In this document: in pieces, positions 3,588-35,138 of the stretch
Numbering within the stretch: position 1 is the first letter of the stretch
Layout of the letters: each line of letters begins with the position of its first letter
Source of the DNA: Trachythela sp. YZ-2020
Taxonomy: Eukaryota > Cnidaria > Anthozoa > Malacalcyonacea > Clavulariidae
DNA length: 64,000 nt
Assembly (NCBI GenBank): GCA_016169945.1
Contig: JADLSH010000334.1
Location: forward strand, 170,784 to 234,783
Reading direction: 5' to 3'
Notes under the pieces: generated by a model
The model's database searches: none
What the model saw: the letters and a program-made list of their open reading frames with translations, nothing else
Told to the model about the DNA's origin: nothing
Translations under genes and position numbers: made by a program

Positions 3588-5233
3588 TTATAGTTTGCTT
3601 ATACGCAGCCTGTCAGATTTCAAGCACTCTTCTGTACAAAACTTGCCAGGTGCAAGGCCCATATCCTTTAGAAGCTCAATTGCAGCAGATGCACCAGTGT
3701 TGAAATGGGCAGCAGCATCATATACACCCAACGAAAACACTTCAGACCCAACAAACACTTCTTTTGGGACACGATTCCAAATCATGGCATTAAACGACTC
3801 GTTTTGGTTTTGAGTCTTGCCATAAAGGCACCTTTGCAGCAGGCTGGGATCACTTAGTGTGTCAAATACTGGTTTAACATGACCAATGACTTGCTTAGGG
3901 AGGCCAGCACCGTGCTTGTACTCCTTTGTGACATTACTCTTATCCCGTTGAATGCCCCACCAGCTATCTTTGCCTTCTGGGCAGTGGGTATGATAGTCAT
4001 CTTTCTCAGATGAAGCACAAAGACATAGAACAGCATATATTGCTTTCTTCATGGATTCTATGTCTTTACAGTTAGTTCGAATGGCTATTCCATAGTAGTT
4101 TTGGAGCTTGTCAATCATGGCATCCGTCAAACGACCTTTTCCTCCTAAACCTTTGTTCTCCTTCTTCAACTTTCGCAGCGCTGTTCCAACCCTTTTTTGC
4201 ACGTGTCCCACACATTCCTTTTTAGTAACAGTTACATTGTCTTCCTCATAAACATCCTTCACAGCAGCATAACTCTTGCTGTCCCCATCTCCATAAAACT
4301 CTGAATAACGAAGCTGGTTGCTCTCCACCGACCGATTAAAAATTCTCAAAGCACCTTCTGGTTCCATTGCAGGGGCAGATCCTTCATAGTTTTTTGCCTT
4401 GCACTTTTGCTCATGCTCAGCTTTCAAAGATGCAGTTTTAGATGTCTGTGGCTTCTTGTTGAGTTTCTTGCATGAATGGCACACTTTGCTTAGTGGTTCA
4501 ACATCAACAATTTTCCCCGTATCCATAGAGATTGTGGCAACACAACCATTAAGCGAAGAAAACCCTCTCCTCTGCCAAGTCCCATCACAAGACACTGCAC
4601 AATCCGCAACTTCGTTTGACGCTGTTTGCTTCAGGTAATGAATTTCTTGACAAGCATCTTGACAAGTACTGTTTTTTTATACGCAGTCGTAGCACTCTGG
4701 AGAAGAGCTTTATTGTGCAAAGCATATGGAGTAGGCCTTGGTGGTGGTGGCATGTTCATAAGTCCACAAAATCGCTTAGCTCCAGCAGGTCCACAACCAA
4801 CAGATCTCATGGCATACACCATCCTTCTGTTCACTTCATAAAAGTTATTAGTCTGTTTCGAAGTGTAGAATTCACTTGTCCACTCACAGGAAGAACACCT
4901 CAAGTAGAGATAGGAAGCACATCCCATCCGCTTGTGTGGATCCTCGAGAAATTGAAGGCTAAATTGTAAACAATTTGAACACGGCAAGAGCTCAAGTGTG
5001 CCTTTTAAAATTTCGAGGTCGACTAAACGAAAACTAGTAACACTCCCTTCTTTCGTTTCAGCATGTACAGTCGAATTATTTGCGGGAATTTTTCGAGCAG
5101 AAGCAGAAGTATTCGGCGTCGTCTGATTCGTCTCACTTTGATCTTGAATCTTCGGCATTTTTGCCGCGGTTGCAAACTGGTTACCAGAAAACTTACGCTT
5201 TCTACGGTATCCAGATGATTTCTTACTCCCCAT
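3588..5233 (-). pseudogene. Mutator-like-domain transposase, one frameshift
   Basis: DNA transposase of the Mutator-like-domain family that is expanded in cnidarians. The first reading frame (5233 to 4631) starts MGSKKSSGYRRKRK, a basic and probably nuclear-targeting N-terminus. It continues with a cysteine-rich zinc-binding-like part (LPCSNCLQ, LRCSSCEW). The second frame (about 4670 to 3588) holds the catalytic part: SCDGTWQRRG, GDGDSKSY and TQNQNESFNAMIW. These are plausible D, D and E positions, though that assignment is inference. The frames join if one base is added in the A7 run at 4672-4678 (T on the plus strand), after which the second frame stays open to the stop. Combined length is about 548 residues. 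It is otherwise intact, so the frameshift could be a sequence error, slippage or a recent mutation. No introns seen. Confidence 0.8.
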
Positions 5234-10451: not shown

Positions 10452-11680
10452 TTGATTTGCCCCGTTGAGGCACTGAATAACATCGACCTGCCCGTTGGGG
10501 TTGGTGCTGTGTTATCGCACGAGATGGAAGACGGAACGGAGAAACCGATCGCCTTTGCTTCACGAACTTTGACAGCAGCAGAAAAGAAATATGCGCAGAT
10601 AGATAAAGAAGGTCTTGCCATGGTTTTCGCAGTCAAGAAGTTCCACCAATTCCTATACGGTCGGCATTTTACAATTTATACCGATCATAAACCACTCCTG
10701 GGAATATTTAGTTCCGATCGAGCAATTCCACAAATGGCCTCGAGTAGAATTCAAAGATGGGCATTGACGATGTCAGCCTACGAATATGATGTAATCTTCA
10801 GACCTGGAAAGGAGAATAGCAACGCGGATGCCCTTAGCAGACTGCCGTTGAAGATCGAGCCAAGTTCGACGCCGATACCCGGCGATGTGATAAATTTGAT
10901 GGATCATTTATCCCGAAGTCCCGTTGATGCATTAAAAATCAAACAGTGGACAATGAGAGATCCGATGTTAGCTCGAATATACCAATTCACTATGAAGGGA
11001 TGGCCGACCACCGTGCAAGATGATAGAATCAAGCCGTATTATACTAGAAGAAACGAATTGAGTGTACAAGAAGGTTGTCTGTTATGGGGATCGAGAGTGG
11101 TAATACCTCCTCAAGGAAGAAGTCAGGTCATGGATATCTTGCATGAAACACATCCTGGTATGTCACGGATGAAGGGATTGGCTCGGGGATATGTTTGGTG
11201 GCCTGGTATGGATAAAGCTATTGAAGAACGAGCCAGAGGTTGTTCTACCTGTCAAATGCATCAAAAGGTACCACCGAAAGCACCTATGCATCCATGGGAA
11301 TGGCCGCACCAGCCATGGTCTAGAATCCACGTGGATTATGCTGGACCGTTTATTTCCTGTTAATTATTGACGCACATTCCAAATGGTTGGATATACACAT
11401 GACCAATTCATGTAATGCCGAGACGACTATTGAGAAACTACGAATGACCTTTGCTAGTCAAGGGTTACCAGAGATGGTGGTGTCTGATAATGGTCCTGCG
11501 TTCGTGAGCAAAGAATTTGAAGAATTCCTTGTGAAGAATGGAATCCGTCACGTGAAATCGGCACCATATCACCCAGCGTCCAATGGTCTTGTGGAAAGGG
11601 CTGTGCAAACTTTCAAACAAGCGATGAAGAAACAAAATGGAACTTTGCAGACAAGATTATCGCGATTTCTGTTTAAGTAT
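10452..11680 (+). pseudogene. pol: Gypsy pol: RNase H and first part of integrase
   Basis: The 3' part of a Ty3/Gypsy polyprotein. It opens inside RNase H (VGAVLSHEMEDG, AFASRTLTAAEKKYAQIDKE, ALSRLP). The integrase zinc-binding part follows (HETHPGMSRMKGLARGYVWWPGM, then CSTCQMH). The integrase core has the first aspartate in HVDYAGPF and the second in VVSDNGPAF, and the glutamate in SNGLVERAVQTFK. One base is missing near 11350-11360, where the frame changes between GPF and FLLIIDAHSKW. Protease and reverse transcriptase are absent, so the copy is 5'-truncated at about 10443. The frame is interrupted at 11680 by the inserted 1.26-kb element and resumes at 12945. Confidence 0.85.
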
Positions 11681-18922: not shown

Positions 18923-21740
18923 CTATCTAATTAATGTACTGAAGTTTTTGAGCAAGAGAGCAAGGCTGTCGTCATAACTTGAATTTGGGTATATGATAGA
19001 CATAATACGTTTTTGCACCCGTTCAACGGCGTTAGAAAGATAGCATGGTAATCCATAGTGGTACACTTGGCAACAATATTCCAAAATTTGCCTAATGCAG
19101 GCACAATAAAAGTTAAGAATATCTGCAGTTGGAACCTTTGCACGTTTAAGTTGGACAATCAAGTAGAACCGCTTGTTCGCCTTCTTGATAGTGTTAAGAA
19201 TATGTTTATTCCATTTCAAGTCACTGCTAATAGTCAGGCCAAGAATCTTAGCGTGGGTGACAACTTCAAGTTGGTTACCGCAGACTACGACATTCTCATG
19301 TAGTGAAGCATGACCAGATTTTGTAAAACAAAACCTTAGTTCTTTACATTTGGAGTCATGGAGTTGTAGCTTGTTCGTGATAGACCAATTTTGTACGACG
19401 TCGACGGAGTTTTGTATTGTGCTTGTGTTGCCTTTGCTTACAACTTCAGAAATTGTGGTATCGTCGATGTATTTCCAACAATCGCTCTCTGGAGTTCTTA
19501 GATCATTAATCATAAGAATGAAGAGCCAGGGGCCAAGTTTGGTTCCTTGAGGGACACCAGAGGGTACACTGCCCCACTCCGAAAAACAGTCATTCGACAG
19601 TTTTACCCGTTGGAATCTGTTTGATAAAAAGTCTAAAATCCACTTCTTTACAAAAGAAGGAACATGCAGATAGTTGGATAACTTTCCTGGCCAAAATGAG
19701 GTGGTCAACAAGATCGAAAGCTTTACGGTAATCAAATAATACAGTTCTGACAACATTTCCAGATCCATCAGTAGCCTCCGACCACTTGTGCACCATCGAG
19801 ATAAGCGCGTAAGTTGCCGATGAGCGCGGAATGCCTCCAAATTGTGCTGGATCAGCTATAGATAAAACAGCTGGGGCGACGTATTTCTCAACTATAACAT
19901 CCTCAGCCAATTTAGATACTACTGAAGTAAGCGAAATTGGCCTAAGATGTTTATTAATTTCACGCACAGGTTTATCTTTGGGGATAGGAGTGATGTTTGC
20001 TCTTTTCCAGACAATAGGAAGTTTTTCTTCCTGGTAAGATGTATTCAACAAGATGGATATTGGGAATGCTAGAATCTCGCCATAAGTTTTTAAAATCCAG
20101 TTGGGTATACCATCTGGTCCTGGTGCTTTGGACGCGTTCAGATTCTTCAGCTTGGTTAACACTGATGCCGGAGAAGTTATCGTTTTAACTACAGTTGGGG
20201 GGTCGACAGGAATGTCTTGAAGTAAGTTGGATAGATCTTCGTCTCGTAAGGGCTGGTATGTGCTCATAGGTTCCAGAAAGGTGTTGTTAATTAAATTGGC
20301 AAGTTCTTTCAACGATAAGTGGTCAATATTTTCTATTTGAAGTTGCGATTGAAGATCGTTGTTGCAGGTTTTCATTCCGCCGATACGTTTGATGTCAGAC
20401 CACCAAGACTTATGTTTTGACTTTTTTAAGTTACTGACCTTCGTAGCAAAAAATTTTGCTCGTAACAGTTTCCTCTCTCTATTCACTTTATTGCGATAAA
20501 ATTTAAACAACTGTACGTTTCCAGATGAAAACGCGCGTTGGCGCAACATTATCAATCCTTTAAAATCCTCAGTAACCCATGGTGCATCGTTAGTGTGGAA
20601 TTTAACTTTTCGCTCCGGCATAGTAAAGTTGACCCCGGTGAAGATAATGTCAGAAAATAATTCACATTTTTCATCACAAGTGACCAAATCCTCGAACGAA
20701 CTCCAATCTATTTCACTAAAATAACGGCCAAGTTCCATTTTACGAGACGGTCGAGTGTCTCTTTTTAGGACAGTTCGTCGACTGGGAAGATTTTGCGCTC
20801 TCTGTTTTGGGCAGATAGTAATTGTGTTGTGATCTGACAGCCCAAAGGGGGGGGAGAATTTCAACTGATGTGGGATCATAAAATTTATGCAGATTTGTAA
20901 GTACTAAGTCCAATATGTTCGATCCACGTGTTGAACTGCGCACCAGTTGCTTTAGTTGAAAATTGCGCTTCAAAATCTTGATATCCAGCTTATTGAAATC
21001 ACCCGCGATAATAATGGCACAACCAGGATGCAGACCCTCGACCTTCGTTAAGGATTCGAAAAGATACTCGAGAATTTCGTGGTCGTTTGAAGATGGAGGA
21101 TGATAAACACAAGCAAGAATGACGCATGTCACACCTCTTGGTAGTCTTTTTGGTCTAGTGTGAACCCAAAGTACCTCAAAGTTTGGATTTTCGAGCTCAT
21201 CCAAGCGTATGCATTTTATGTCTTCTCTGATGTATATACAAACCCCTCCATGTAATCCAAATAAACGGTCACGCCTTATCAGATTAAAGTTTTCGAGTGC
21301 TATTTGGTTGTCACCGATAACGTCCCTCAGCCATGTTTCCGTAATAAAAAGAAAGTCGAAATAACGTTGCGAGGCAAGAACACGGACCTCGTCGACTTTG
21401 GGAGCCAGAGACATAACGTTTGATAAGAGGAGACTAGGAGCGAATTCAGTGGAAGACTTGGGGCGAGCTAATTGTTTAGTAGTGGTTTTGGGTGAAATTT
21501 TAGGAGTGATGTATATAATATTACTAGCACTGTTGTGGCTTATATAGCTCCGCAGAGGGGGAGAAAAACACTTGGTTTTCGCAAGCCGGTTTTTAACTCG
21601 GACAGGTATTGGCCGTTCTGAAAGTTCTTTTGACTTTGCGTTTGAGTGTTGGGGGAACAGTCCATGGATATTTTATGTACAAGATGTAAGTGGTCTAACC
21701 AATCTTTGGTTGGTCGACGAAGGCAGGAGGGTGGTTTGGA
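18923..21740 (-). pseudogene. APE-type non-LTR retrotransposon ORF2
   Basis: Endonuclease plus reverse transcriptase on the minus strand. Upstream linker: KSKELSERPIPVRVKNRLAK and MSLAPKVDEVRVLASQ. APE endonuclease: FLFITETWL, GGVCIYIRED, CVYHPPSSN, IIAGDFN and, after a frameshift, GLSDHNTI. RT: LNASKAPGPDGIPNWILK, RPISLTSVVSKLAE, VLFDYRKAFDLVDH, then after a second frameshift SGVPQGTKLGPWLFILMINDL and the catalytic KYIDDTT, ending NFSTLIR at 18923. The first frameshift lies in a G8 run at 20847-20854 (plus strand), the second near 19680-19700. Apart from these the order is complete, so this was a near full-length ORF2. Upstream it abuts unrelated GC-richer sequence at about 21740. Confidence 0.85.
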
Positions 21741-23263: not shown

Positions 23264-23518
23264 TTACTCTGTCTGTGTGTTTTTTGCGGACAGTGTGATT
23301 CTTGCTTTGTCACAGTCTTCGGAACCTTTACAAGTGAAGTATCCAGGGGTTATGTCCAAATCGCTAAATATTTTGATAAAGGAAATGTCCCCATCATTAA
23401 ACTTCAACACAGCTAAACCAGTTGCAAGGGCAACGGTTTCCTGCTCTACATAAGTAGATTTTGGACATCTGTCCCAGATACGGCCGTTCAAGCATTCGTT
23501 CACATTTTGGGTCAAGCC
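23264..23518 (-). pseudogene. 3' part of the split Mutator-domain transposase
   Basis: Starts in the middle of a conserved motif: GLTQNVNECLNGRIWDRC, then PKSTYVEQETVALATG, ending SAKNTQTE at 23264. This matches the C-terminal third of the transposase at 3588 (KTQNQNESFNAMIWNRVPKE). The sequence 5' of codons GLT is missing here and found at 33744-35138: the 9.3-kb transposon sits between, and its 9-bp duplication (ggtcaagcc, 23510-23518 and 32843-32851) covers codons G-L-T. The two pieces are therefore one disrupted gene. The putative catalytic glutamate is in QNVNE, right after the insertion point. Confidence 0.85.
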
Positions 23519-23610
23519 AAAGGAGGATTATTCAGCTATCCCATAATGCAACAGTTTGAAACATATTATCGACGAACGGAAATGCAAATTTTATTTGCGC
23601 GGCGTCTGTC

Positions 23611-24729
23611 ATGGACGTAAGAGAACATATGGCGGACGTGTTTACAGCTAATCAGTGCCTATATGTTCATTGTTTAGACCTTGAAGTTGAGAGAATTCTT
23701 CATTTAAAATCTGTCCCATGTATAGAACTTTACATGGTCATGGCACACGTTAGTTTTCCTGAGAAATTAAGCGAACGCCTTGCTGTTTTGTTCTTACACA
23801 GCGAAGAGAACGTCTCGAAATTGCGCGAACAACATTCACCAGCTATTATAGAAGTAAAGTCAAGCTGCGTTCACACAGTAAGTGTATTATTTACCTCAAT
23901 TTCTTCTTCTACATTCAAATTTCATAAATAATGCTTATTCTTTTTAAAGATTGAAAACGAAGGACCAGATGAAGGCTGTACAATTATGCTTGTATTTACA
24001 TTTGATGTAATGGTCAATAATTCAATTGCCGCGCAAGTATTGCCTCCTAGAATGCCTTCGAGCGAGGAAGACGATATAGTCTCCATGCCCTTTCTGAAGT
24101 TGGATTCGTGCAAGTGCAACTGTACATCGTTTCCCGAACTTTCTGATGTTTTGCTGGAAGAAGGTAAACGAAATGCTTGCGATGTAAGCAACGAAGCCAA
24201 GGCCATGGAGGCAGCCAACATGGCCGAAGATGCAAGTGCAACAGCAATTCTGTCAGCAAATAACATATCTGCTTCTGAGGCAAACTCGACTGATTGTTAT
24301 CCGGAATCAGAGGTTTCATATTCTGAGACTTTTACCTTAAAGGGGAGTAGTTTCCACAAAGATTTTCAGAGGGTACTTCGAAGCTGCAAACAGATGCTTT
24401 TAGAAAATATTCCAGTTGAGCTCAAATTGTGCAACGAACCTGTGAATGTCAACGATGAGAATGCAATTGTTGCTAAGGCAAAAGTAAATGGAAATTTTTC
24501 ATCTATTGGATATGTTCCAGGGAAAAAGCTAAAGAAAATTGAATCCGCAGTAAACAACAATGAAATTACAAACATTGCATTAACTACAGTGCAATACACA
24601 TTTATATGGGGAGCTGGGGAACACAAGTATATTCCTCAAATAACAATTACAAAGAATGGAAAATGGCTTCAAGATGACAAAAGATACAAATATAATAAAC
24701 TTTTTGATAAAATAATGTTACAAGTGTGA
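23611..24729 (+). CDS. HIRAN-like domain protein of the 9.3-kb transposon
   Basis: Two exons: 23611-23877 and 23950-24729, joined in phase 0 by an intron with donor gtaagtg and acceptor ttttaaag; 348 residues. The N-terminal part (MDVREHMADVFTANQ..., a Cys/Leu-rich segment) is unrecognised. The middle has an acidic stretch (SSEEDD) and a CKCNC cluster. The C-terminal about 130 residues resemble a HIRAN domain: FTLKGSSFHKDFQ, then VELKLCNEPVNVNDENAIVA, IGYVPGKKLKKI. HIRAN domains, known from HLTF/Rad5 helicases, bind DNA ends. The reading frame is intact, the only large intact one in this element. Start chosen as the first ATG, 92 bp from the TIR. A role in recognising transposon or target ends is inference. 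Confidence 0.65.
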
Positions 24730-25894
24730 GGGGACACTTAGACAACTTTGTTAAACCAGAACAATGGTCAAGAAACCATACTGCAGTATGTTTTTTATAT
24801 TACTTTTTTATATCAGTGGGTCAACTGAAAATAGCCTGCTCGTATTTTAAATAGTACATAATAAATGTAAAATACCCAACCTCCACTCTGAATTGCAAAT
24901 GGCACACCCTGGGACATGCCCTGCAGCAGCCCACTGGGTGACATAATACAGGAATGTAAACTAATTATCCAACCAACCTATTTAACCCATTAGCTGGCAA
25001 TGCACCCTACTTCAGTATTTGGCTCTGTCCAATGCCAGAAAATTTCATTTGACAGTGGTAGGGTACTGTCAGTAAATGGGTTAGCAAAACTATCTGCTAG
25101 TGTCTCTTGTTAACCCATTACTAGGTATTTAGCTGGTATTGTGCCTCATTGCACCTTTCTGAAGTGTTTTGCTCTGTCAGTCACCAGATGATTTTACTAT
25201 TCAGTGGTAGGGACATACCAGTAAATGGGTTAACCAAAAACCAAGGATAAAATACTGTTGGCCATCTTGTTTTGGCACCCTAAACCAACCACAGAGCTGA
25301 GCAATTTGGCAACTATCAAGAATATTTATGTCACAGATGTTAATACCTAAGAATATAGACACAATGTTTTGCTTGAAATGTTGAGATATTTTTTTATGTA
25401 CATACACCCATAACGAAGAATTGAAAACTCATTAAACCCACACCACATGAGTCTAGTTAGATAAGCAAATCCTAAACCATCCCCCATAGATCAAGCCAGA
25501 AAACATTCTGAAGAAGACTCGAGCACCAAGTTGAAAGCTCAATAGAAAACAATTTAATCCGGAGAACTTAAAATAAACACAATATGCCTGGATTACAAAT
25601 CTTTAAATAAATATATATATATATATATATATACGTGTAGGTTTAGGTCTACGAAACGCAAAGAGTGCTCGACAACATATAGTTAGAGCAAATTATAGAT
25701 TTTCGCTTACCTCAAAACTTGTCTGCAACAGGCTGTTTCATCTGTAAAAGAATCATCAGGCAGTTGATTCTGCCTGATGATTCTGCCTGATGATTCTTTT
25801 ACAGATGAAACAGCCTGTTGCAGACAAGTTTTGAGGTAAGCGAAAATCTATATATATATATATATATATATAAATATAAAATCTCGAACCATAG
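24730..25894. other. Spacer between convergent genes, with a foldback
   Basis: No coding signal. Contains repeated phrases of the type cagtggtaggg...agtaaatgggtta (about 25051-25082 and 25202-25232), an AT microsatellite and a hairpin element at 25697-25852. Polyadenylation of both convergent genes would fall here (aataaa near 24860). Confidence 0.5.
25697..25852. mobile_element. Foldback hairpin, arms about 65 bp
   Basis: The arm agattttcgcttacctcaaa...aatcatcaggcag is followed, after about 20 bp, by its near-perfect reverse complement ending tttgaggtaagcgaaaatct. AT dinucleotide runs flank it on both sides. Likely a small foldback insertion inside the larger transposon. Confidence 0.8.
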
Positions 25895-28800
25895 TTAATC
25901 GGTCAGTGTTAGATGGGTTGGGATTGGTGGCATTCCCATCTCTGGTTTGTGCAGCCTCTGCCGTATGGTCCCCTTGTTTCGAATAGGCAGCATTGCTCGT
26001 CCAGGCACCAGAATGGAGTTGTCTTCCCGGTGATTAATTCGGAGCTTGTGAAGACGTGGTTGGTGTTCTTTGCTTGCGTTTGACTTTTCTGAGATGACAT
26101 CAAATGATGGCATTTCAGCTTCCCTGTATCTTTCATTTATTGTATAATAATAAAATGGAAGATCAGATGACATCCGTTTGGTAAATTCCCTAATGAAAAA
26201 AGAAAGCATTTATATCCTGCATGACACAGGGTATAGCATATTTTAAGACATTACACTAGGATGCAACTAAAAGTAAGACCCAAAGTTATTACATTATGTA
26301 AAAGACAGGCCCATACAGTGATGGGTAAATTCTTGTCAGCAGCAGACCAGTTTATACACCCTTTTCATAAATGGCTGCCGATTAAAAATTCTTTTATGTG
26401 CATATAAATTGGCCCAACTAGCCTCGTATTCATGTTAAGATTTCAAAGGAATTTCTACCCAGAAACGAGGCTAGTTGGGCCAATTTATATGCACATAAAA
26501 GAATTTTTAATCGGCAGCCATTTATGAAAAAGGTGTATAGGGCTGGTTCGTCCATGGCACACCAATCCCTTGGTAAGGGCAGACTGAGTGTGTCGTCAGT
26601 TATATAGATAGCTTACCTCACAATTTGTGGCCAAAATTCCTTAAACTGCTTGAGTGAGAAGACATTTCCAATGTAGCGGTGGGTCAAACTGAAAAGGTTT
26701 CCAAGTCATCTGTTCCCCAGCCCGTGGATGCTCTGGATAGCCAATAGCCTCGTTCTCACATCTGCGAAGTTCTTGACTTTCAATATTTGTGGTTATTTCA
26801 ATCACTGTCTCCTGGAGAATCCACAGATGTTGTCTATTGGCCTGTAATACGGTTAAAAATGTCAGTGGCGTTTGGGAAATTTAAAGCAGGATGAACAGGT
26901 TCATTTTCGCCAATAATTGGGTTAATATAGTATATGCATGGTATACCAATTATGGACAAAGGTTTACTCCAGGATTCAATGTTATTTTAACAGTAGATAC
27001 CCTACCCTACCCTACGCTCCACTCTACCCTACCCTACCCATTTTTCCCAGTTTATAAATATCTTTGAAAACACAGGGCAATTTTAAATATTTACCTGTTA
27101 ATGTCAATCGTGGAGAAATCATAACAACTCTTGTGCCAAGGCATCCACTCATCCAAGATGTATTGCAGCATCAAATGATTATATTTGCACCGTTTAAGTT
27201 GACTGATACCTCTGCCATCGGTTGCCTCATGCCAGTTTGCTATAACCTCAACGTGTTTGGCTTCTCTTTCATGCCCATGCCTTCTTAGTGATTCAACCAC
27301 GTGATAGGAAAGAAGCCGTTCCGCATCTACAAGGGACTGCTTTCGTTTGCCAATCAAAGCAGCGTGTGTAAGGCCACTTTTGGGATCTAATAGTGCAGCG
27401 TCAAATGCTTCATAATTTAGGCTATTATACTTTCCTTCCCGAACACTTTTAGCAGCTCGCCTAAATAAGTGGTTGTGATCACTACGGTCATGCCTTGGAG
27501 TCCCCATAATTGGATCTATTTCTGGCACGTACAAAAATGTTGAGAAGTCAACATTTTCCTTCTTCAGCTCTTCTATCTTCTCCCTGTATAGATATGTTGC
27601 TACAATTGAACGCAGCATGTCCAGATAGGACTCGGGATTGTTTCTTCGGAAAGGATAAGGAGTATGACCTGCTGGAACAAAGTTTTGTCTGATGATGGTA
27701 ATTGCAGTTTCCAATTCTATTCCTGCATCTGTTGTCATTATGTCAATCTCCTCAATGACATCGAGAGGAATGGCAGTAATAGGAAGTGGAACAACAGGTG
27801 TACCATCGTCCAGATCTAAAAGAGAAATTGTTCAGGAATTGGAACAGGTCACAAGGCGTTAAAAAACATAGTGTACATAATTATATCATAAAAAAACAGA
27901 TGACATCAGAGCTCTTTACAAAAATCAAAATGCAAATAAGGCAATGTTACACGGAACAACTTTTAGTATGCTTGTAATGACAATTTGCAATGCAAATGTG
28001 GTTACATGAAATTTGATTAGTTGGGAACCTCAGGACAATTTACAGTACATTGCAAGTTGCCTTACAAGTTTTCCATGTAACATCGTCTTAACACCAACTG
28101 GCATTGGGAAATAGAGTACAAATTGTAAGTTAGAATGCTACGCGGCAATTCATACTTTGAAAATACATGTATGTACGAGTATCATCTCTAAAATGAACGC
28201 ATTATTTTGTAGGAATGTACCTTTAAAACACGGATCTTAGAACATGGACATAGTTAATATATGGCTGGTTGTCCAAAAGCTGGTTAGCTTAATCATAGGT
28301 TAACGTAAAAGTCAAAGCAAGCTTACCAACATCTTGTTTATCAACTTCGAGATATTTTTGTAGAAATCTTGTCCGGATCATCAGAAGTTCTATTTTCCAA
28401 AGTTTTGAAATGAACAGACGTGCAGAAATACTCGAACCAAGAAAGTGGGTTAAATTTTGACAAGGGTTAGGGCTAATCCAGCTTTGAACAACCGACACCT
28501 GTATACATGTAGGAAAAACACAAATATTATGATACCTGACTTTGCCAAAAGACATCCTTCAAGTTTCTTCTTTGACATATTTCTTGCCTGTTGTCGGGCA
28601 TCATGTATAAGCTGCCACACATGCAAAGCTCTTGATTCCCTTTAGTTCGCAATGAACAAAATTCACCATCTGTTACAGTACCTAAATGCAATAAAACAAA
28701 ACGGCTATTATAAAGCATTAACTATTTGAAACATGCAAATTTCCTTCAAAGTAGAAGTAAGGTTAAATGTTAACCCACCTCTGCACCTTCTTAACTTCTT

Positions 28801-31800
28801 AAAGTGCCTATGGCTATTCAATAAAATCTCACTCCAGATTTTTATGGTAATGTGTTGTGAAGGTTAGGGACAAAGATCATTTCACCATAGCCCGTATGGC
28901 AAGATCCCCTAACTTGTTACTGTACACCACATAAAATACATTACTACAGAGCAATCAAGTTAAACAGTGACAAGCTAACAATAATACCTGCAAGGGTCAT
29001 ATCGCGCTTTTTCATTTCCCTCTTTAGATCCTGGTTGAACTTCCTCACATCGTTGTCTTTGAGTGTAATACATGGAATATATCGAACAGGAAGAGCATAA
29101 GGTTTACTTGATCTCCTTTCATCTGACAACATTGTAACAACAACATGGGTGGCACTGGTTCGTTTCTTCTTGTACAAATTCCTAAGGTATTGCGAACGAT
29201 GTGATGCAAGGGTATTAACATTGCTTCTCATAGGCTTTGTGATGGTTGAGCCTGAAATTGATGACACAGCAGTCTGAAAGTTAAGTGCAAGTTGCTGGCT
29301 CTGTTGAAGCAGAGTCTGGTACTCAACAACTTCCCAGTTTCTGTCCTTTAAAGTAGCCTCGGGGCAGTTGCCTTGCTTGACTTTTTCCTCAAAGAGTTTC
29401 TTTGCTGTTTTGAAGCCATCGCTAAGGAAATTAGTTTCCACCTGAAAATCAGATATGGTTTTCTTGATAATCTCTTCTATCTTTGGCTGGGGAACAATAG
29501 GAGTTCTCAGAAGTTCCATTTTGCGTTCATGTCAACGTATTCATCCCTTAGTTCCTTTAGCTTGCCATCATCATAATCTACGTCACCGTTCCAAACCTTC
29601 TTTTGTGACTCCATTATTCCTGCTCTTACATCTGTACCATCAAGTTTAATCCAGAAACGACCATTGCAATTTACTGACTTCAACTCATCAATGGCTGCAA
29701 CCTGTGTAACATTAAGTATAAGAAATGAACATTGTATAATTTTATATACTTGCCCTGTGCTTTTCAGATGAGATGCATTCAATTAGCTACTTGAATAACT
29801 CGTTTAGATGCACGTAGCTACTTGAATAACTCACTTAGATGCAAGGATGCTTTATTTACCTGTATTGCTTGAGTCGGAGTATATTCTGATTTTTTATTTT
29901 GTCTCCACTGACTGCTGTAGCTTGAGCATGCCACATTAACTTTTGCCTAATAAAATAATCAGCATCTACATGTAGTAACAGTTTTACTGCCAGTTCATTC
30001 AAATAATGAGCTAATGATGAATGATCATAAATTTCCAATACCAGCAGTCAAACACTTACAGTATAGGACTGCTGGTATTTTATCATTTCCGTGGTCGCTC
30101 TCTAGCCTCTGGGTGCTCACACACACTGAGGATAGACCCTGGATATCAGGTTGCTCAAACAGATAGCTCAGATTGTATAACCACCAATTGTAATTAATCT
30201 ATCAAATAAATGTGGTTTATAATTTTACTCAACTAAAACTTGATAACAATTTATTGAGAATTAGCTAGGAAAACAAAAAAATCATCTAAGTAATAAAATC
30301 ACAACTCATACCATTTTAGGATCCTTTGTGACATCCTTTCCTCCACCACTCCATAAAGGACCAGCAAAAAGACGCTTGAAGCGGCTGGGAAACTCAGTTT
30401 CCATTGTTTCACGCCACAACCTGAAGTCCTCAGGCTCTTTAACCTACACAAGAGAAATACATGTATAGATCAATATGTATTTAATCAATCTAATTACTTA
30501 CCATATATATCCTAAGGGATCAGTGGACAATGTATCAGACTAGTGTACAGTGCCCAGTGGAAAATCCTTTCTACCAGCAATTTCTACCTGTAGACCATAG
30601 TTTTACACCTTTTACACCATAGTTTTAAAATATTCTACACCTACCTGCATAACATTTGTTGCAGTGAAAAACTCCAACTGGTATTCTATTAATCCAAATG
30701 GCATTCTATTCAGTGGTATTAATGGTGTTCCATTTTCTCCAACAATGCACTGTGACCATTTATAGACAAGGTTGTGTTTTTTTGCATCCTGCAAAACTTT
30801 CATTGCTTCAATGGATAAATTGACAAAATTAGAACAGTTACCGATAAGACCAACTGAATGATATAGATCAGAAAACAACTTATCCAAAATAGCAATCTTA
30901 ATTTCCTTTCCAAGTGCAGAAAACATTGGCAGTGTAACACGTTCCACATCTTTCAGATTTGATAATTGGATCTTTAGTAAGACTTCTGACAGAACATTAA
31001 CAAGCATGTTGGGATGCAGGAGTCCAAGGCCTTCTTTAACCACATCTTCAAGCTGCTCGTGTAAGCTTGCTCAAACGTGAGACAAGAAATGTTGGGGTAT
31101 TTAGCATACTTGTCGGTGTTTCTGAGTTCTCATTCAGAAAATCTCCATCCAGGATGGTGTCAATGGTCAATCCATACCCTTTTTCAGCTTCTTCAATTGT
31201 CTTAAATTTTGGCCTTAAAATGTTGACAACTCTTTGACGAACAGAGCGCTCTAACAAATTACAGAGTAAGCTACATATTAACAAATTTATTTGTGAAAAC
31301 AGGGAAAGTGATGTCGGTTTTGGTTCTGACTGTTGAACAGTTGGTGATTACCAATGTAAAACTGTTGCATAACTTTCTCGTTCAATGGTTATTGAGAATC
31401 GGTTGGTGTCAGGTTGTGGAACCAACACAGCACTCAATAAACACTGAATTTTCCTCAATTAATCGACCTTGTGTACTATATCAACTGTCACTCTTATGGT
31501 TAATTATCAGTTTATCACTATTTCTTATTGCTTTCAATCTCATCGCCATAGTTTCTACTAAGCTGTGGCAATCTTACCAGTTCGCTTTTCTGATGAAGCA
31601 GTTTCCTGTACATATTTTGCCGCTTTATGCCAATATTGATGAGATGCTTTCATTGCAGGCCAGACAATATCGGTAGGTTGTTCATCTTTGTGCAACGATA
31701 CAAACTGAACAAGTGCTTTGTCCTCTCTTGTGGTCCAAGGAATACGCTGGCTCTTTGGTCCTTCATTGCCTGTCTGATGAGACTGTGAGGGTGCTAAAGG

Positions 31801-32282
31801 CGACTTGTTTTCCTGTCACAGATTTAAAAATGATCATGTATATTAGCCTCAAGATTTATCATTATCTATGGTCTTTATTCCTATAAAGTGTACTGTGTAG
31901 CATGCTGTAATGACAAATAGTTAAATATAGATCCCTTTTATGTTTAATTAATACATATTGCTGGCAGTGCCATTTCGCCCATTTGTGATTCACTATAAAT
32001 CACTGGACACTGGTATGACAAATTATGCATATATCACATAAAAACATTGACGAAGTCTTGGGAAGTTTCTTGCCTGTATTATACTTTTGTGTGCCAAAAA
32101 TGTAAATAAAACAAGGGCTTCAAGTTTAATTAATAAATTACCTGTAGTTGGGAGGAGTGATAATCCAACCTTCTCGATGCTTTTATTATTTTTATACTGT
32201 CCTCAAGATTATCGATTGAAACCAGTGGTCGCTTTCTGTTTGCACAGGCTCCAAAACTGTCTTTAACGTTCTCTGTTGACAT
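25895..32282 (-). CDS. Multi-exon Myb/SANT-like protein of the 9.3-kb transposon (candidate transposase)
   Basis: Exons found by GT-AG and phase continuity: 32142-32282, 31578-31812, 30645-31250, 30312-30443, 29860-29946, 28988-29701, 28536-28681 (acceptor uncertain), 28327-28389, 27095-27815, 26617-26833, 25895-26189. Roughly 1,100 residues. Exon 2 encodes a Myb/SANT-like helix bundle (IPWTTREDKALVQFVSLHK, IVWPAMKASHQYW). Exon 6 has GRFWIKLDGTDVRAGIMES and VWNGDVDYDDGK. The 27-kb exon carries TTDAGIELETAI, IANWHEATDGRGISQLKRC, LDEWMPWHKSCYDFSTID. The last two exons carry TDDLE, FSLKQFKEFWPQIV and DLPFYYYTINERYREAEMPSFD, ending TLTD. The last blocks look like a family I associate with expansion in cnidarians, with no function I can name. 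Frameshifts in exons 3, 6, 7 and two in exon 10. DNA binding via SANT and many conserved acids make a transposase plausible but unproven. Confidence 0.7.
26353..26539. mobile_element. Long perfect hairpin in an intron
   Basis: About 75-bp arms (tatacacc...cataaatggctgccgatt... to gcctcgt, and the reverse complement from acgaggct to ggtgtata) with a loop of about 36 bp. It lies in the intron between the last two exons of the Myb/SANT-like gene, so it would fold in the pre-mRNA. Arms are almost identical, suggesting a young foldback insertion. Confidence 0.85.
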
Positions 32283-32629
32283 TTTACCTTCCTTTCAAAC
32301 TACATTTTCCTTCTTTAAAGTTTTATTTTGTCAACCCTATATTTTTGTTTGCCAGCTTCATGAATTTGTGTGCGATATTCCAACTTTTGGCATCAAAATT
32401 ATGAGGGCTATACATCGCTGAGTAATGGGGACCTTTGGGGACCTTTGGTATCAAACAGGAGGAAAATTACCATAGAAACGATTGATTTCATCATAATACC
32501 CAAGAAACCTTCGAAAAATCCGTATCCATCCATACAAGTACCATATCCACACGTTGTGTCGCCTAGCGAAGCCTGCTTGATTATTAATCGGTCGGTAAAC
32601 AATGATAAAATTCGTTGTTTATTTAAATT

Positions 32630-32770
32630 CTAATTAACTTTTTGCATAGAAAGTAATCGAGAATAAATAAAACCTGTATGAATTGGTGAATATGTTGTGA
32701 TGAGTGTCCCTCGTTGATTCAATATATTGGCCTGAAGATCGTGTAAATACCCCGCGAAATTTTCTGCCAT
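32630..32770 (-). CDS. Short ORF near the right transposon end
   Basis: A 46-residue ORF starting MAENFAGYLHDLQANILNQ, 72 bp inside the right TIR on the same strand as the multi-exon gene. A candidate donor (cag|gtttta near 32671) could make it an alternative upstream exon of that gene. Equally it may be chance. No motif recognised. Confidence 0.25.
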   Translation of the reverse strand: MAENFAGYLHDLQANILNQRGTLITTYSPIHTGFIYSRLLSMQKVN

Positions 32771-32854
32771 TTTCTGAAAACCGGAAGTCGCTCGCCGAAA
32801 GAAAGCGCGAGGCATATAGGGATAGCTGAATAATCCTCCTTTGGTCAAGCCATG

Positions 32855-33738
32855 TAGGCTAGTGCGGTTTAAAAAAAAAACCGGAACCGAAAACCGACGG
32901 AAAAACCCCGATAAAACCGACAAAATCGGGTTTTTTGTCCGCCATCTTGAAAAGTGAAAACAATTTTTAAATTGGCATAAAATTATTTTGCCTTTGGAGC
33001 AAAAGGAATTAGTAAAAGATAAAAAGACAAAAAATGTTTTGTTTATAAGATATTATTATTTAACCAAATAAATATTCAATAATATAACTTAAGTTAAAAC
33101 AAAAAAGGTTTTCACAAATCACAAGAAGTGTGAGATGGCATTGGTAATTGCTTCGTGACGGTGGTTTCCAGGTGTTAGCGGCGTTGCTCTAGCAAATGCG
33201 CTCGTGGTGGAAGGCTGCGAGGACGACGGACTGGACGGAGATTCTGGCGTTTCAACCAAATCACTGGTTTTGCGGGTGGTTTGTCCGCAGATGCCTTGAT
33301 AGGTTTGACGTGTTTGATCCCTTATTTTTCACGGTCCGCTTACATATTTGACATACAGAATCATCCTGCGCTTCTTCCGTGTTCTTAAAAAAGTTCCACA
33401 CTAAACTTCTTGCGGCCATCGAAAGTTTACTTTTAATTGAAGAACGTATCGCACCTGGTCTTTCGCAGCACAAGATGACGATGTTATGAATTTAGTATCA
33501 CCTCGTGCGTAGTGCACGCAATACCCACGCATCAGAATAAATTTAATCTGATTTATTATCGGCTCAGCTGTCAACACGCATGGTTTAGAGATGAGTCATA
33601 CTATTAAAATAAGGATGCGATATCCGATCTAGACGCGGTTAAATCGATTTTCGTTTTTTTCGGTTTTCCGATATAACAAAACCGTAAAACCGGTTTTTTT
33701 AAAAAACCGGTTTTTTCGGTTTTAACCGCACAAGCCTA
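32855..33738. mobile_element. hAT element with 8-bp TSD and BED-finger remnant
   Basis: Ends taggctagtgcggttt / aaccgcacaagccta form short TIRs. The 8-bp duplication aagccatg is exact at 32847-32854 and 33739-33746, the hAT signature. Runs of aaaccgg / ccggttt make the subterminal regions strongly inverted. Non-autonomous: only the start of a transposase remains (see 33261-33473). It sits 12 bp from the 9.3-kb transposon, inside the same transposase gene; the two TSDs overlap by 5 bp (aagcc). Confidence 0.9.
33261..33473 (-). pseudogene. BED zinc-finger start of a hAT transposase
   Basis: Contains SLVWNFFKNTEEAQDDSVCQIC and NTSNLSRHLRTNHPQNQ, that is CxxC followed by HxxxxH after a VW.FF start, the usual BED-finger layout at the N-terminus of hAT transposases. 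The catalytic domain is absent. Located inside the 884-bp hAT element, oriented leftward. Confidence 0.8.
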
Positions 33739-33743
33739 AAGCC

Positions 33744-35138
33744 ATGAGTACATTTACCCAACAAGTCCGGGTTACTGAAATTGTCAAATACCGGCTCAAT
33801 GAAGTCAACAATGCACTTTGGAATCCCATTCTGTGTTCTTGTGCTTGTATGTCTCACTGTCTCTTTGGTAACTGCACCAACTGTTCTCGCCATCAGGCAG
33901 AGATGTTGCTGAGGATTCTCATCGGTTGACGCAACATGATACAGTGATGCCTTTATGGCCTTGGCCATTTTACCAACATCATCCAGTTTTCTCTTATTGC
34001 CAAACCATAATAGTTCTGCAGAACATCAACTTTGCCATCAGTGAGCCTACCTCTACCAGCCAAGCCTTTCCCATCATCAAGTTTAACACCTTTGTTGGCG
34101 TTCTTCAACTTTCGCAACCGACTTCCAACGCGCTTTTGCACGTGTCCGATGCACTCCAATTTATTCGGTATGAAGTCATCTCCATATGGCTTGCTTTGAA
34201 CAATAGCATTGTAGGTTGACGAATCACCATCTCCAAGCATGTCCTTATACTTGAGCCTTCTTGTAGTGAACGACCGTTCGAATATCCGCAAAGCTCCAGT
34301 CGTTTCCATGCTGCCGGCACTTCCTGCATGGTTGATTTTGCATCGGTGAGAGGCTTTCCATTCTCCATATCTTGGGTCATTCATATTTTTCCCCCACTTA
34401 TGACATTGTTGGCACTTGTCAGATAACACTTCGACATCCAGGCACTTCTTGGTATCCAGGGATATTATTGTGACGATGCCATTGTGAGATGCATGACCCC
34501 TCTTCTGCCAAGTACCATCTAAGGATATTCCGCATTCTCCAGCACCATTCGCACTCATCTCCCTAACAGTCACAGCATTGCTCACCATGCTATCATTGGC
34601 TAACTGCTTCACTGTGGGAAAAGCTTTTCATTTTATATCTTGGTGAAGATCCGGCACGATGGTAGATCAGGCATATTCATGATCTTGCTGAAGGTTGTCA
34701 TGGCAGTGTGTCCTCGACCAATTTCCCTGAAAGCCAGAATCGCTCTGACATTTACTTCATAAGAAGGGCCTTGTTTCTTTGATGTGTTGAAACAATACTT
34801 CCACTCACACTCCATACTTTTACATTGCAAAATAATGTAACTGGAAAGCCATCCTTTTTCTTCCTGTCAAGATGAGAATCCATGTCACCTCCACATTCAG
34901 GACATTTCAAAATGTCATCGAAAACACCAAATAGCACCGACAAATCCATAAATACTGTGCCTTCCTTAATACTGGTGTCCACATTTCCCGAAATAGCACC
35001 CAACTTGGCAGTATTTTTGCCGATATTCATCGCAGAAGGTCCAGGGCTTTCATCACCAGGTCCGCCATCTTTGATTTTTGCATTCTTTGATGGTGGATTT
35101 CTAGGCTTCTTTCTCTTTCTATTCTTAGTATTTCCCAT
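33744..35138 (-). pseudogene. 5' part of the split Mutator-domain transposase
   Basis: N-terminal two thirds of the gene whose tail lies at 23264-23518. Starts MGNTKNRKRKKPRNPPSKNAK (basic), then a zinc-like pair (LKCPECGGDMDSH), CKSMECEWKYCF, SLDGTWQKRGHASHNG, MLGDGDSSTYNAI and HVQKRVGSRLRKLKN, ending PDLLGKCTHG where the hAT and 9.3-kb elements interrupt it. Putative catalytic aspartates are in SLDGTW and GDGDS. Frames change near 34810, 34625 and 33960, so at least three frameshifts. It is diverged from the copy at 3588-5233, so they are separate insertions. A family-type terminal motif lies upstream at about 35530. Confidence 0.85.

Follow-up and report, generated by a model that had tools for sequence, protein, structure and literature searches.

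A recently spread two-gene DNA transposon in Trachythela sp. YZ-2020 pairs a HIRAN protein with a putative P-related transposase

A stretch of 64,000 nucleotides from the anthozoan Trachythela sp. YZ-2020 (assembly GCA_016169945.1, contig JADLSH010000334.1, positions 170,784 to 234,783 of the forward strand; hereafter the window, in whose numbering positions are given) contains a 9,324-bp inserted element at 23519-32842. Carrying two genes, it is a DNA transposon of an animal genome in which it has spread recently. It has defined ends flanked by 9-bp duplications, has spread to seven sites, and carries a HIRAN gene and a large gene whose pairing is repeated in a second family. We regard as the probable reading a cut-and-paste transposon in which the large protein is a DDE transposase distantly related to that of P elements and the HIRAN protein is its accessory.

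Ends, copies, and genes of the element

The left end of the element is a 24-bp terminal inverted repeat (TIR), AAAGGAGGATTATTCAGCTATCCC, at 23519-23542 on the plus strand, and sequence comparison of the ends placed its counterpart at 32819-32842 on the minus strand; the two TIRs match without difference across all 24 bp. By flank comparison, the target-site duplication (TSD) GGTCAAGCC, which has no strand, occurs at 23510-23518 and again at 32843-32851. A 182-bp query from each element end was then searched against the genome (578 Mb, 396 contigs). Each query gave eight matches (eight of eight candidates scored), and these paired into eight copies, the window's own and seven others, whose whole sequences were compared. 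All eight carried the same TIRs at both ends and an exact 9-bp TSD. Thus, the identical 24-bp TIRs and the 9-bp TSD reported in a preliminary description of this DNA were found exactly, and its claim of a DNA transposon with two convergent genes was borne out by the ends, the TSDs, and the gene models.

The eight copies occupy seven target sites with seven distinct TSD sequences, the window copy and copy C177 lying at one site. The right flanks of these two show no substitution in 1,083 columns, and their left flanks are 97.7% identical for approximately 970 bp and then diverge; they may be two haplotypes of one site. Copy-to-copy identity was 99.63-99.88%, and the eight-copy alignment has 37 variable substitution columns in 8,028 gap-free columns. 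When positions 25500-25905 were excluded, 59 of the 83 distinct gap segments were one base long. Because the gaps are mostly of one base and substitutions are few, most indels between copies look like long-read assembly noise. Nested insertions are present in C239 and C117. Inside the element, at 25560-25900, lies a dinucleotide and fold-back stretch whose length is highly variable among the copies, C239 being approximately 2 kb longer there.

The HIRAN gene lies on the plus strand and has two exons encoding 348 residues. Exon 1 (23611-23877), which has a GT donor, is supported by a homologous exon matched separately at other loci, and exon 2 (23950-24729), with the HIRAN domain and the stop, by Pfam and fold comparison. 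The frame is open in two of the eight copies (window and C111), so that the intact 348-residue HIRAN-like gene described earlier was confirmed, with Pfam and fold comparison in agreement. A Pfam HIRAN match was found in 14 of 16 relatives of the protein. In the fold comparison of its model, the bacterial lp_0118 ranked first and HIRAN domains of HLTF/Rad5 ranked second to seventh, and PDB titles of HLTF HIRAN with DNA were among the matches; a PDB sequence search with the HIRAN protein returned nothing useful. As modeled, the small protein is of HIRAN fold and signature. The HIRAN domain is familiar from the fork-remodeling enzymes HLTF and Rad5, with which the element's protein shares a similar fold by comparison and the HIRAN matches of its relatives; unlike them, it is a stand-alone protein with an N-terminal part of approximately 200 residues and no helicase match. 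As a separate observation, the database protein P0014 has an integrase core (rve) fused to a HIRAN part and is probably a chimeric frame of a nested retroelement.

The large gene runs convergent to the HIRAN gene on the minus strand, with 10 exons joined by GT-AG introns, and encodes 1,102 residues in the majority reading of the eight copies. The gene model, built from the copies, places exon 1 with the ATG at 32142-32282, exon 2 at 31578-31812 (where Pfam gave a weak Myb-like match), exon 3 at 30645-31250, exon 4 at 30312-30443, and exon 5 at 29860-29946. Exon 6 (28988-29701) holds the candidate first catalytic D (KLDGTD, D422), exon 7 (28536-28681) the candidate second D (TVTDGE, D644), and exon 9 (26617-26841) the candidate catalytic E (TDDLE, E977), all three identified by motif comparison; exon 8 (27095-27815) covers part of the stretch between the second D and the E, and exon 10 (25895-26189) is C-terminal. 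In the window copy, exon 9 is three bases shorter than in the majority of copies. The 1,102-residue reading takes one exon 3 homopolymer, at 30777, as in the window copy and C111 against the other six copies, in which it is two bases shorter and shifts the frame. The Myb/SANT-like protein of about 1,100 residues given in the preliminary description therefore held as to length and a weak Myb match, its exon count of about 11 being revised to 10.

A second family with the same gene pair

A genome search with the HIRAN protein gave at least 125 matches (116 of 545 candidates scored), approximately 40 of them near 28% identity. Seven HIRAN loci outside the family of the window element were examined (C313 twice, C254, C24, C79, C49, and C95). 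The left end of a second family occurred in five of them, and none was found at C79 and C95 with the pattern used. On the downstream side of C254, C24, and C49, convergent exons of the putative transposase were present in all three, and a right TIR with an exact 9-bp TSD in two (C49 and C24). The near-complete 8,831-bp element at C49:929127-937957 begins and ends with AAAGGAGGACTGACC and is flanked on both sides by GCTTAATAC; its HIRAN gene is in forward orientation and its transposase pieces, in reverse, extend across residues 67-1095, with an in-frame stop within the exon 6 counterpart. The 3,689-bp copy at C24:1332790-1336478, with ATGACATCC on both flanks, is internally deleted and retains HIRAN and only C-terminal transposase pieces. 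At C254, the second-family left end is embedded in a P-like gene of THAP type; the locus has HIRAN as well as C-terminal parts of the transposase, and no right end was found within 9.7 kb.

Comparing the first 31 bases of the two families, 21 agreed at the left end and 20 at the right, and none of 10,000 shuffles attained 21. The second-family HIRAN proteins at C254, C24, and C49 are 43-46% identical to that of the first family, and the transposase pieces mostly 42-65%. As these three loci and the end comparison show, both families have the two genes paired in convergent order, a AAAGGAGGA start, and 9-bp duplications. The co-occurrence of the two genes, which the preliminary description had proposed to check, was thus found again between related TIRs, with 9-bp TSDs at two of the three loci.

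Three HIRAN loci were situated approximately 0.5 kb downstream of THAP-type P-like genes, and P elements carrying HIRAN were considered and rejected, because the second-family left end cuts into the P-like gene, as expected of a nested insertion. This proximity therefore is no evidence for kinship with P. At L039, L044, and L051 (C313 twice and C254), the P-like genes are cut at the same place and have the same flank, ATGTTTGAC, which suggests that the P-like gene and the element nested in it were duplicated as a unit.

The large protein compared with P-like transposases

At least seven database relatives of the large protein were found, including proteins of the sea anemones Actinostola and Exaiptasia, the coral Desmophyllum, and the mussel Mytilus trossulus, the last with 42% identity across 99% of the searched part. 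Pfam searches admitted matches with E values up to 10 for the element's protein and up to 5 for the seven relatives, HMMER filters dropping most of those above 0.1. Five of the seven relatives (P0002, P0003, P0004, P0021, and P0022) matched PF21787, which models the N-terminal part of the RNase H domain in P-element-like transposases, with E values of 0.069 to 1.3e-4, and the second family's large protein matched it with an E value of 0.0026; in these six of eight relatives, the matches cover profile positions 48-63 to 128-131. Exon 6 holds most of the corresponding stretch in the element. The Myb match (residues 73-143, E 0.013) was below the Pfam cut-off. No GTP-binding domain, which in P is inserted between beta5 and alpha4, was matched by Pfam in the element's protein or the seven relatives, 333 residues lying between D644 and E977, and a PDB sequence search with the large protein gave nothing useful.

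P-like transposases are very numerous in this genome, with at least 150 matches above the PF21787 cut-off among 796 candidates, and 12 with frames longer than 480 residues were used for motif comparison. Their blocks read LDEM...GYVDLG, CDGP, and SQDHLE.FF (the last in 10 of the 12), and those of the element family LD.TD...GDVDLGDG, TDGE, and TDDLE.FF; we call them D1, D2, and E. When profiles were scanned without gaps at three window sizes over approximately 850 places, the D2 block ranked first each time (z 3.5-5.5), and in the reverse scan over approximately 1,070 places it ranked 2, 1, and 1. A P-like hidden Markov model (HMM) was also built from 11 P-like regions, and scores were compared with 200 shuffles per member. 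Joined D1 and D2 stretches scored 2.4-18.1 bits, which none of the 200 whole shuffles equaled in six of seven members. The spacing from D422 to D644 is 222 residues compared with 89 in the P-like L033, leaving room for a helical insert of approximately 130 residues, and that from D644 to E977 is 333 compared with 242. A conserved Q663-x-x-H666 lies after D644, at a place that would be plausible for the [C/D](2)H motif of P, with beta5 not resolved in the model. For the P transposase itself, the triad D230, D303, and E531 and the position of the insertion domain are published (PMC8230255, PMC7776569), as are 8-bp TSDs and cleavage staggered by 17 nucleotides (PMC7776569). The element resembles the P superfamily in its cut-and-paste layout with TIRs, in the sub-threshold PF21787 matches of the relatives' catalytic region, in similar D1, D2, and E blocks, and in the long stretch ahead of the candidate catalytic E. 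It differs in its weak Myb-like match instead of THAP, in a spacing of the first and second D that is approximately 130 residues longer, and in having a second gene, HIRAN, and no GTP-binding domain match.

Several results weigh against a P-related transposase. None of the PF21787 matches in the six relatives attained the curated cut-off, and in the Pfam searches the element's own protein and relatives P0001 and P0023 had no PF21787 match and the large protein no THAP match. The TSD is 9 bp in all eight copies and in two second-family copies, as opposed to 8 bp in P. The profile scan placed D1 only at ranks 5, 21, and 9 and E at ranks 157, 22, and 26; in the reverse scan, the ranks were 9, 29, and 11 for D1 and 240, 37, and 44 for E. 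An hhalign comparison with the P-like proteins reached an E value of 0.064, yet in the expected register. Against the P-like HMM, scores of the uncut proteins ranged from -1.5 to 7.1 bits (none was listed for that of the element), the element's joined stretches scored 2.4 bits and were equaled by 4 of 200 whole shuffles, and when D1 alone was shuffled, 2-35 of the 200 shuffles per member came up to the observed score. Based on the profile-scan ranks and the HMM shuffles, the D2 block in the relatives is well supported, the correspondence of D1 to the P-like block moderately supported, and that of the E block recognizable only by eye. The AlphaFold2 model of relative P0001, made from seven sequences, was poor (mean predicted local distance difference test score 52), Foldseek with this model returned nothing at an E value of 0.001, and the RNase H fold with a DDE/D triad that the preliminary description had proposed to look for was not obtained. 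The VIA fold-search rows fell on a helical bundle (residues ~133-294) and were mostly unrelated helical-bundle proteins; P-element structures were absent from these rows, which excludes nothing. Taken together, the sub-threshold PF21787 matches of the relatives and motif blocks of unequal strength favor the earlier claim of a transposase function for the large protein. Catalysis by the large protein, with D422, D644, and E977 as putative triad, is what these sequence comparisons suggest, and distant kinship to P appears somewhat more plausible than its absence.

The state of the large gene bears on a different explanation, that the copies have lost autonomy, being young relics or having been mobilized by a source copy that is lost or unassembled. 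The large frame is open in none of the eight assembled copies, the first stops falling at residue 192 in the window copy and at 485, 217, 156, 288, 288, 288, and 288 in the others. The two-base exon 3 homopolymer difference common to six of the eight copies may be a real frameshift, and two copies lie at one site. These observations, of which those on the frame also count against an active transposase gene, are opposed by the seven target sites, the exact TSDs, and the 99.6-99.9% identity, and the 59 one-base gap segments of 83 together with the few substitutions are what assembly noise would give; we therefore consider nonautonomous copies unlikely.

Quite improbable is that the large protein is an accessory DNA binder served in trans by the transposase of another element, for example a P-like one. 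P-like transposases are indeed abundant, and the broken large frames would fit such dependence, but the relatives of the large protein themselves show the P-type RNase H match and conserved acidic motifs, and the 8-bp TSD given for P (PMC7776569) contrasts with the 9 bp of all eight copies and both two-ended second-family copies. We give equally little credence to a MuDR-type element whose transposase drifted past recognition and whose HIRAN is a captured host gene without a role in transposition: its TSD length, the two convergent genes known for MuDR, and two Mutator-like PF20700 frames in the window would agree with this, whereas P-type RNase H is the sole catalytic model matched repeatedly, no Mutator model was matched in the Pfam searches, and HIRAN adjoins the transposase in the second family too, at 43-46% identity, unlike a passing capture.

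Insertion site, proposed mechanism, and placement

The gene interrupted by the element is a PF20700 Mutator-like transposase relic, at 23264-23515 and 33741-34612, and a longer frame related to it lies at 3588-4595. A second insertion, at 32855-33738, adjoins the element, with the 8-bp direct repeat AAGCCATG at 32847-32854 and 33739-33746. Its ends read TAGGCT(A/T)GTGCGGTT and are, we assume, hAT-like. This second insertion separates the relic halves, and the reading frame of the left half therefore extends past the TSD, on the right, by no more than a few codons. Of the earlier statement that the halves meet in frame at the duplicated codons, the crossing of the TSD for a few codons stands, and the direct junction does not. 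Elsewhere in the window, a minus-strand frame at 36347-37093 matches DUF3504 (E 1.7e-24) and is presumably a recombinase-derived mobile gene, and retroelement frames at 10452-11363 and 19590-20879 contain a reverse-transcriptase RNase H with an integrase zinc domain and a reverse-transcriptase fragment below cut-off.

If the large protein is a P-related transposase, its Myb-like N-terminal domain would read and bind the TIRs, and an RNase H-type DDE domain, a distant relative of the one in P elements and THAP9, would catalyze with D422, D644, and E977. The protein would cut the element out of its old site and link it to target DNA at positions spaced by 9 bp. The HIRAN accessory could bind 3' ends that are exposed on the excised element or at the broken donor site, and once bound might stabilize these ends or steer repair. 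The HIRAN domain of HLTF binds 3' DNA ends, and the overhang left by P cleavage is 3'. It is because of this binding and the 17-nucleotide stagger of P that an end-binding partner is proposed; by this analogy, a role of the HIRAN protein at DNA ends is conceivable, albeit tentative.

The placement of the element follows from these features. It would not be filed as a P element, because its TSD length and N-terminal domain do not fit, and it may nevertheless work like one. The 9-bp TSD in all eight copies fits the 8-9 bp of MuDR/Mutator elements, from which it differs in its short 24-bp TIRs, its HIRAN second protein, and the lack of a Mutator-type catalytic match; no MULE-type transposase was matched in the Pfam searches of the element's protein and the seven relatives. 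PIF/Harbinger elements are two-gene transposons in which a Myb-like domain takes part, with a 3-bp TSD, whereas here the Myb-like and putative catalytic domains are in one protein and the TSD is 9 bp in all eight copies. The catalytic domain or the TSD thus speaks against assignment to either. A literature search, judged by titles and abstract openings and with Repbase and Dfam outside its scope, recognized no such HIRAN-pairing element, and within that scope the earlier assertion that no named superfamily has this pairing was not contradicted. The element therefore apparently represents a so far undescribed cut-and-paste lineage with a HIRAN partner, probably a distant relative of P. A bolder proposal, to which we incline less, is a new animal cut-and-paste superfamily sister to P, in which a HIRAN protein dedicated to this task might bind the long 3' overhangs generated at the element ends by a P-like transposase, as a repair or synapsis factor.

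If the P-related reading of the element is true, one more lineage would join the few transposase groups related to P, and the HIRAN domain would be able to serve as a transposon protein. Some anthozoan and mussel proteins now listed as "uncharacterized", for instance the relatives of the large protein, would then be accounted for as products of transposon genes. Transposition assays would, moreover, gain a young two-gene element of animal origin whose ends are defined.
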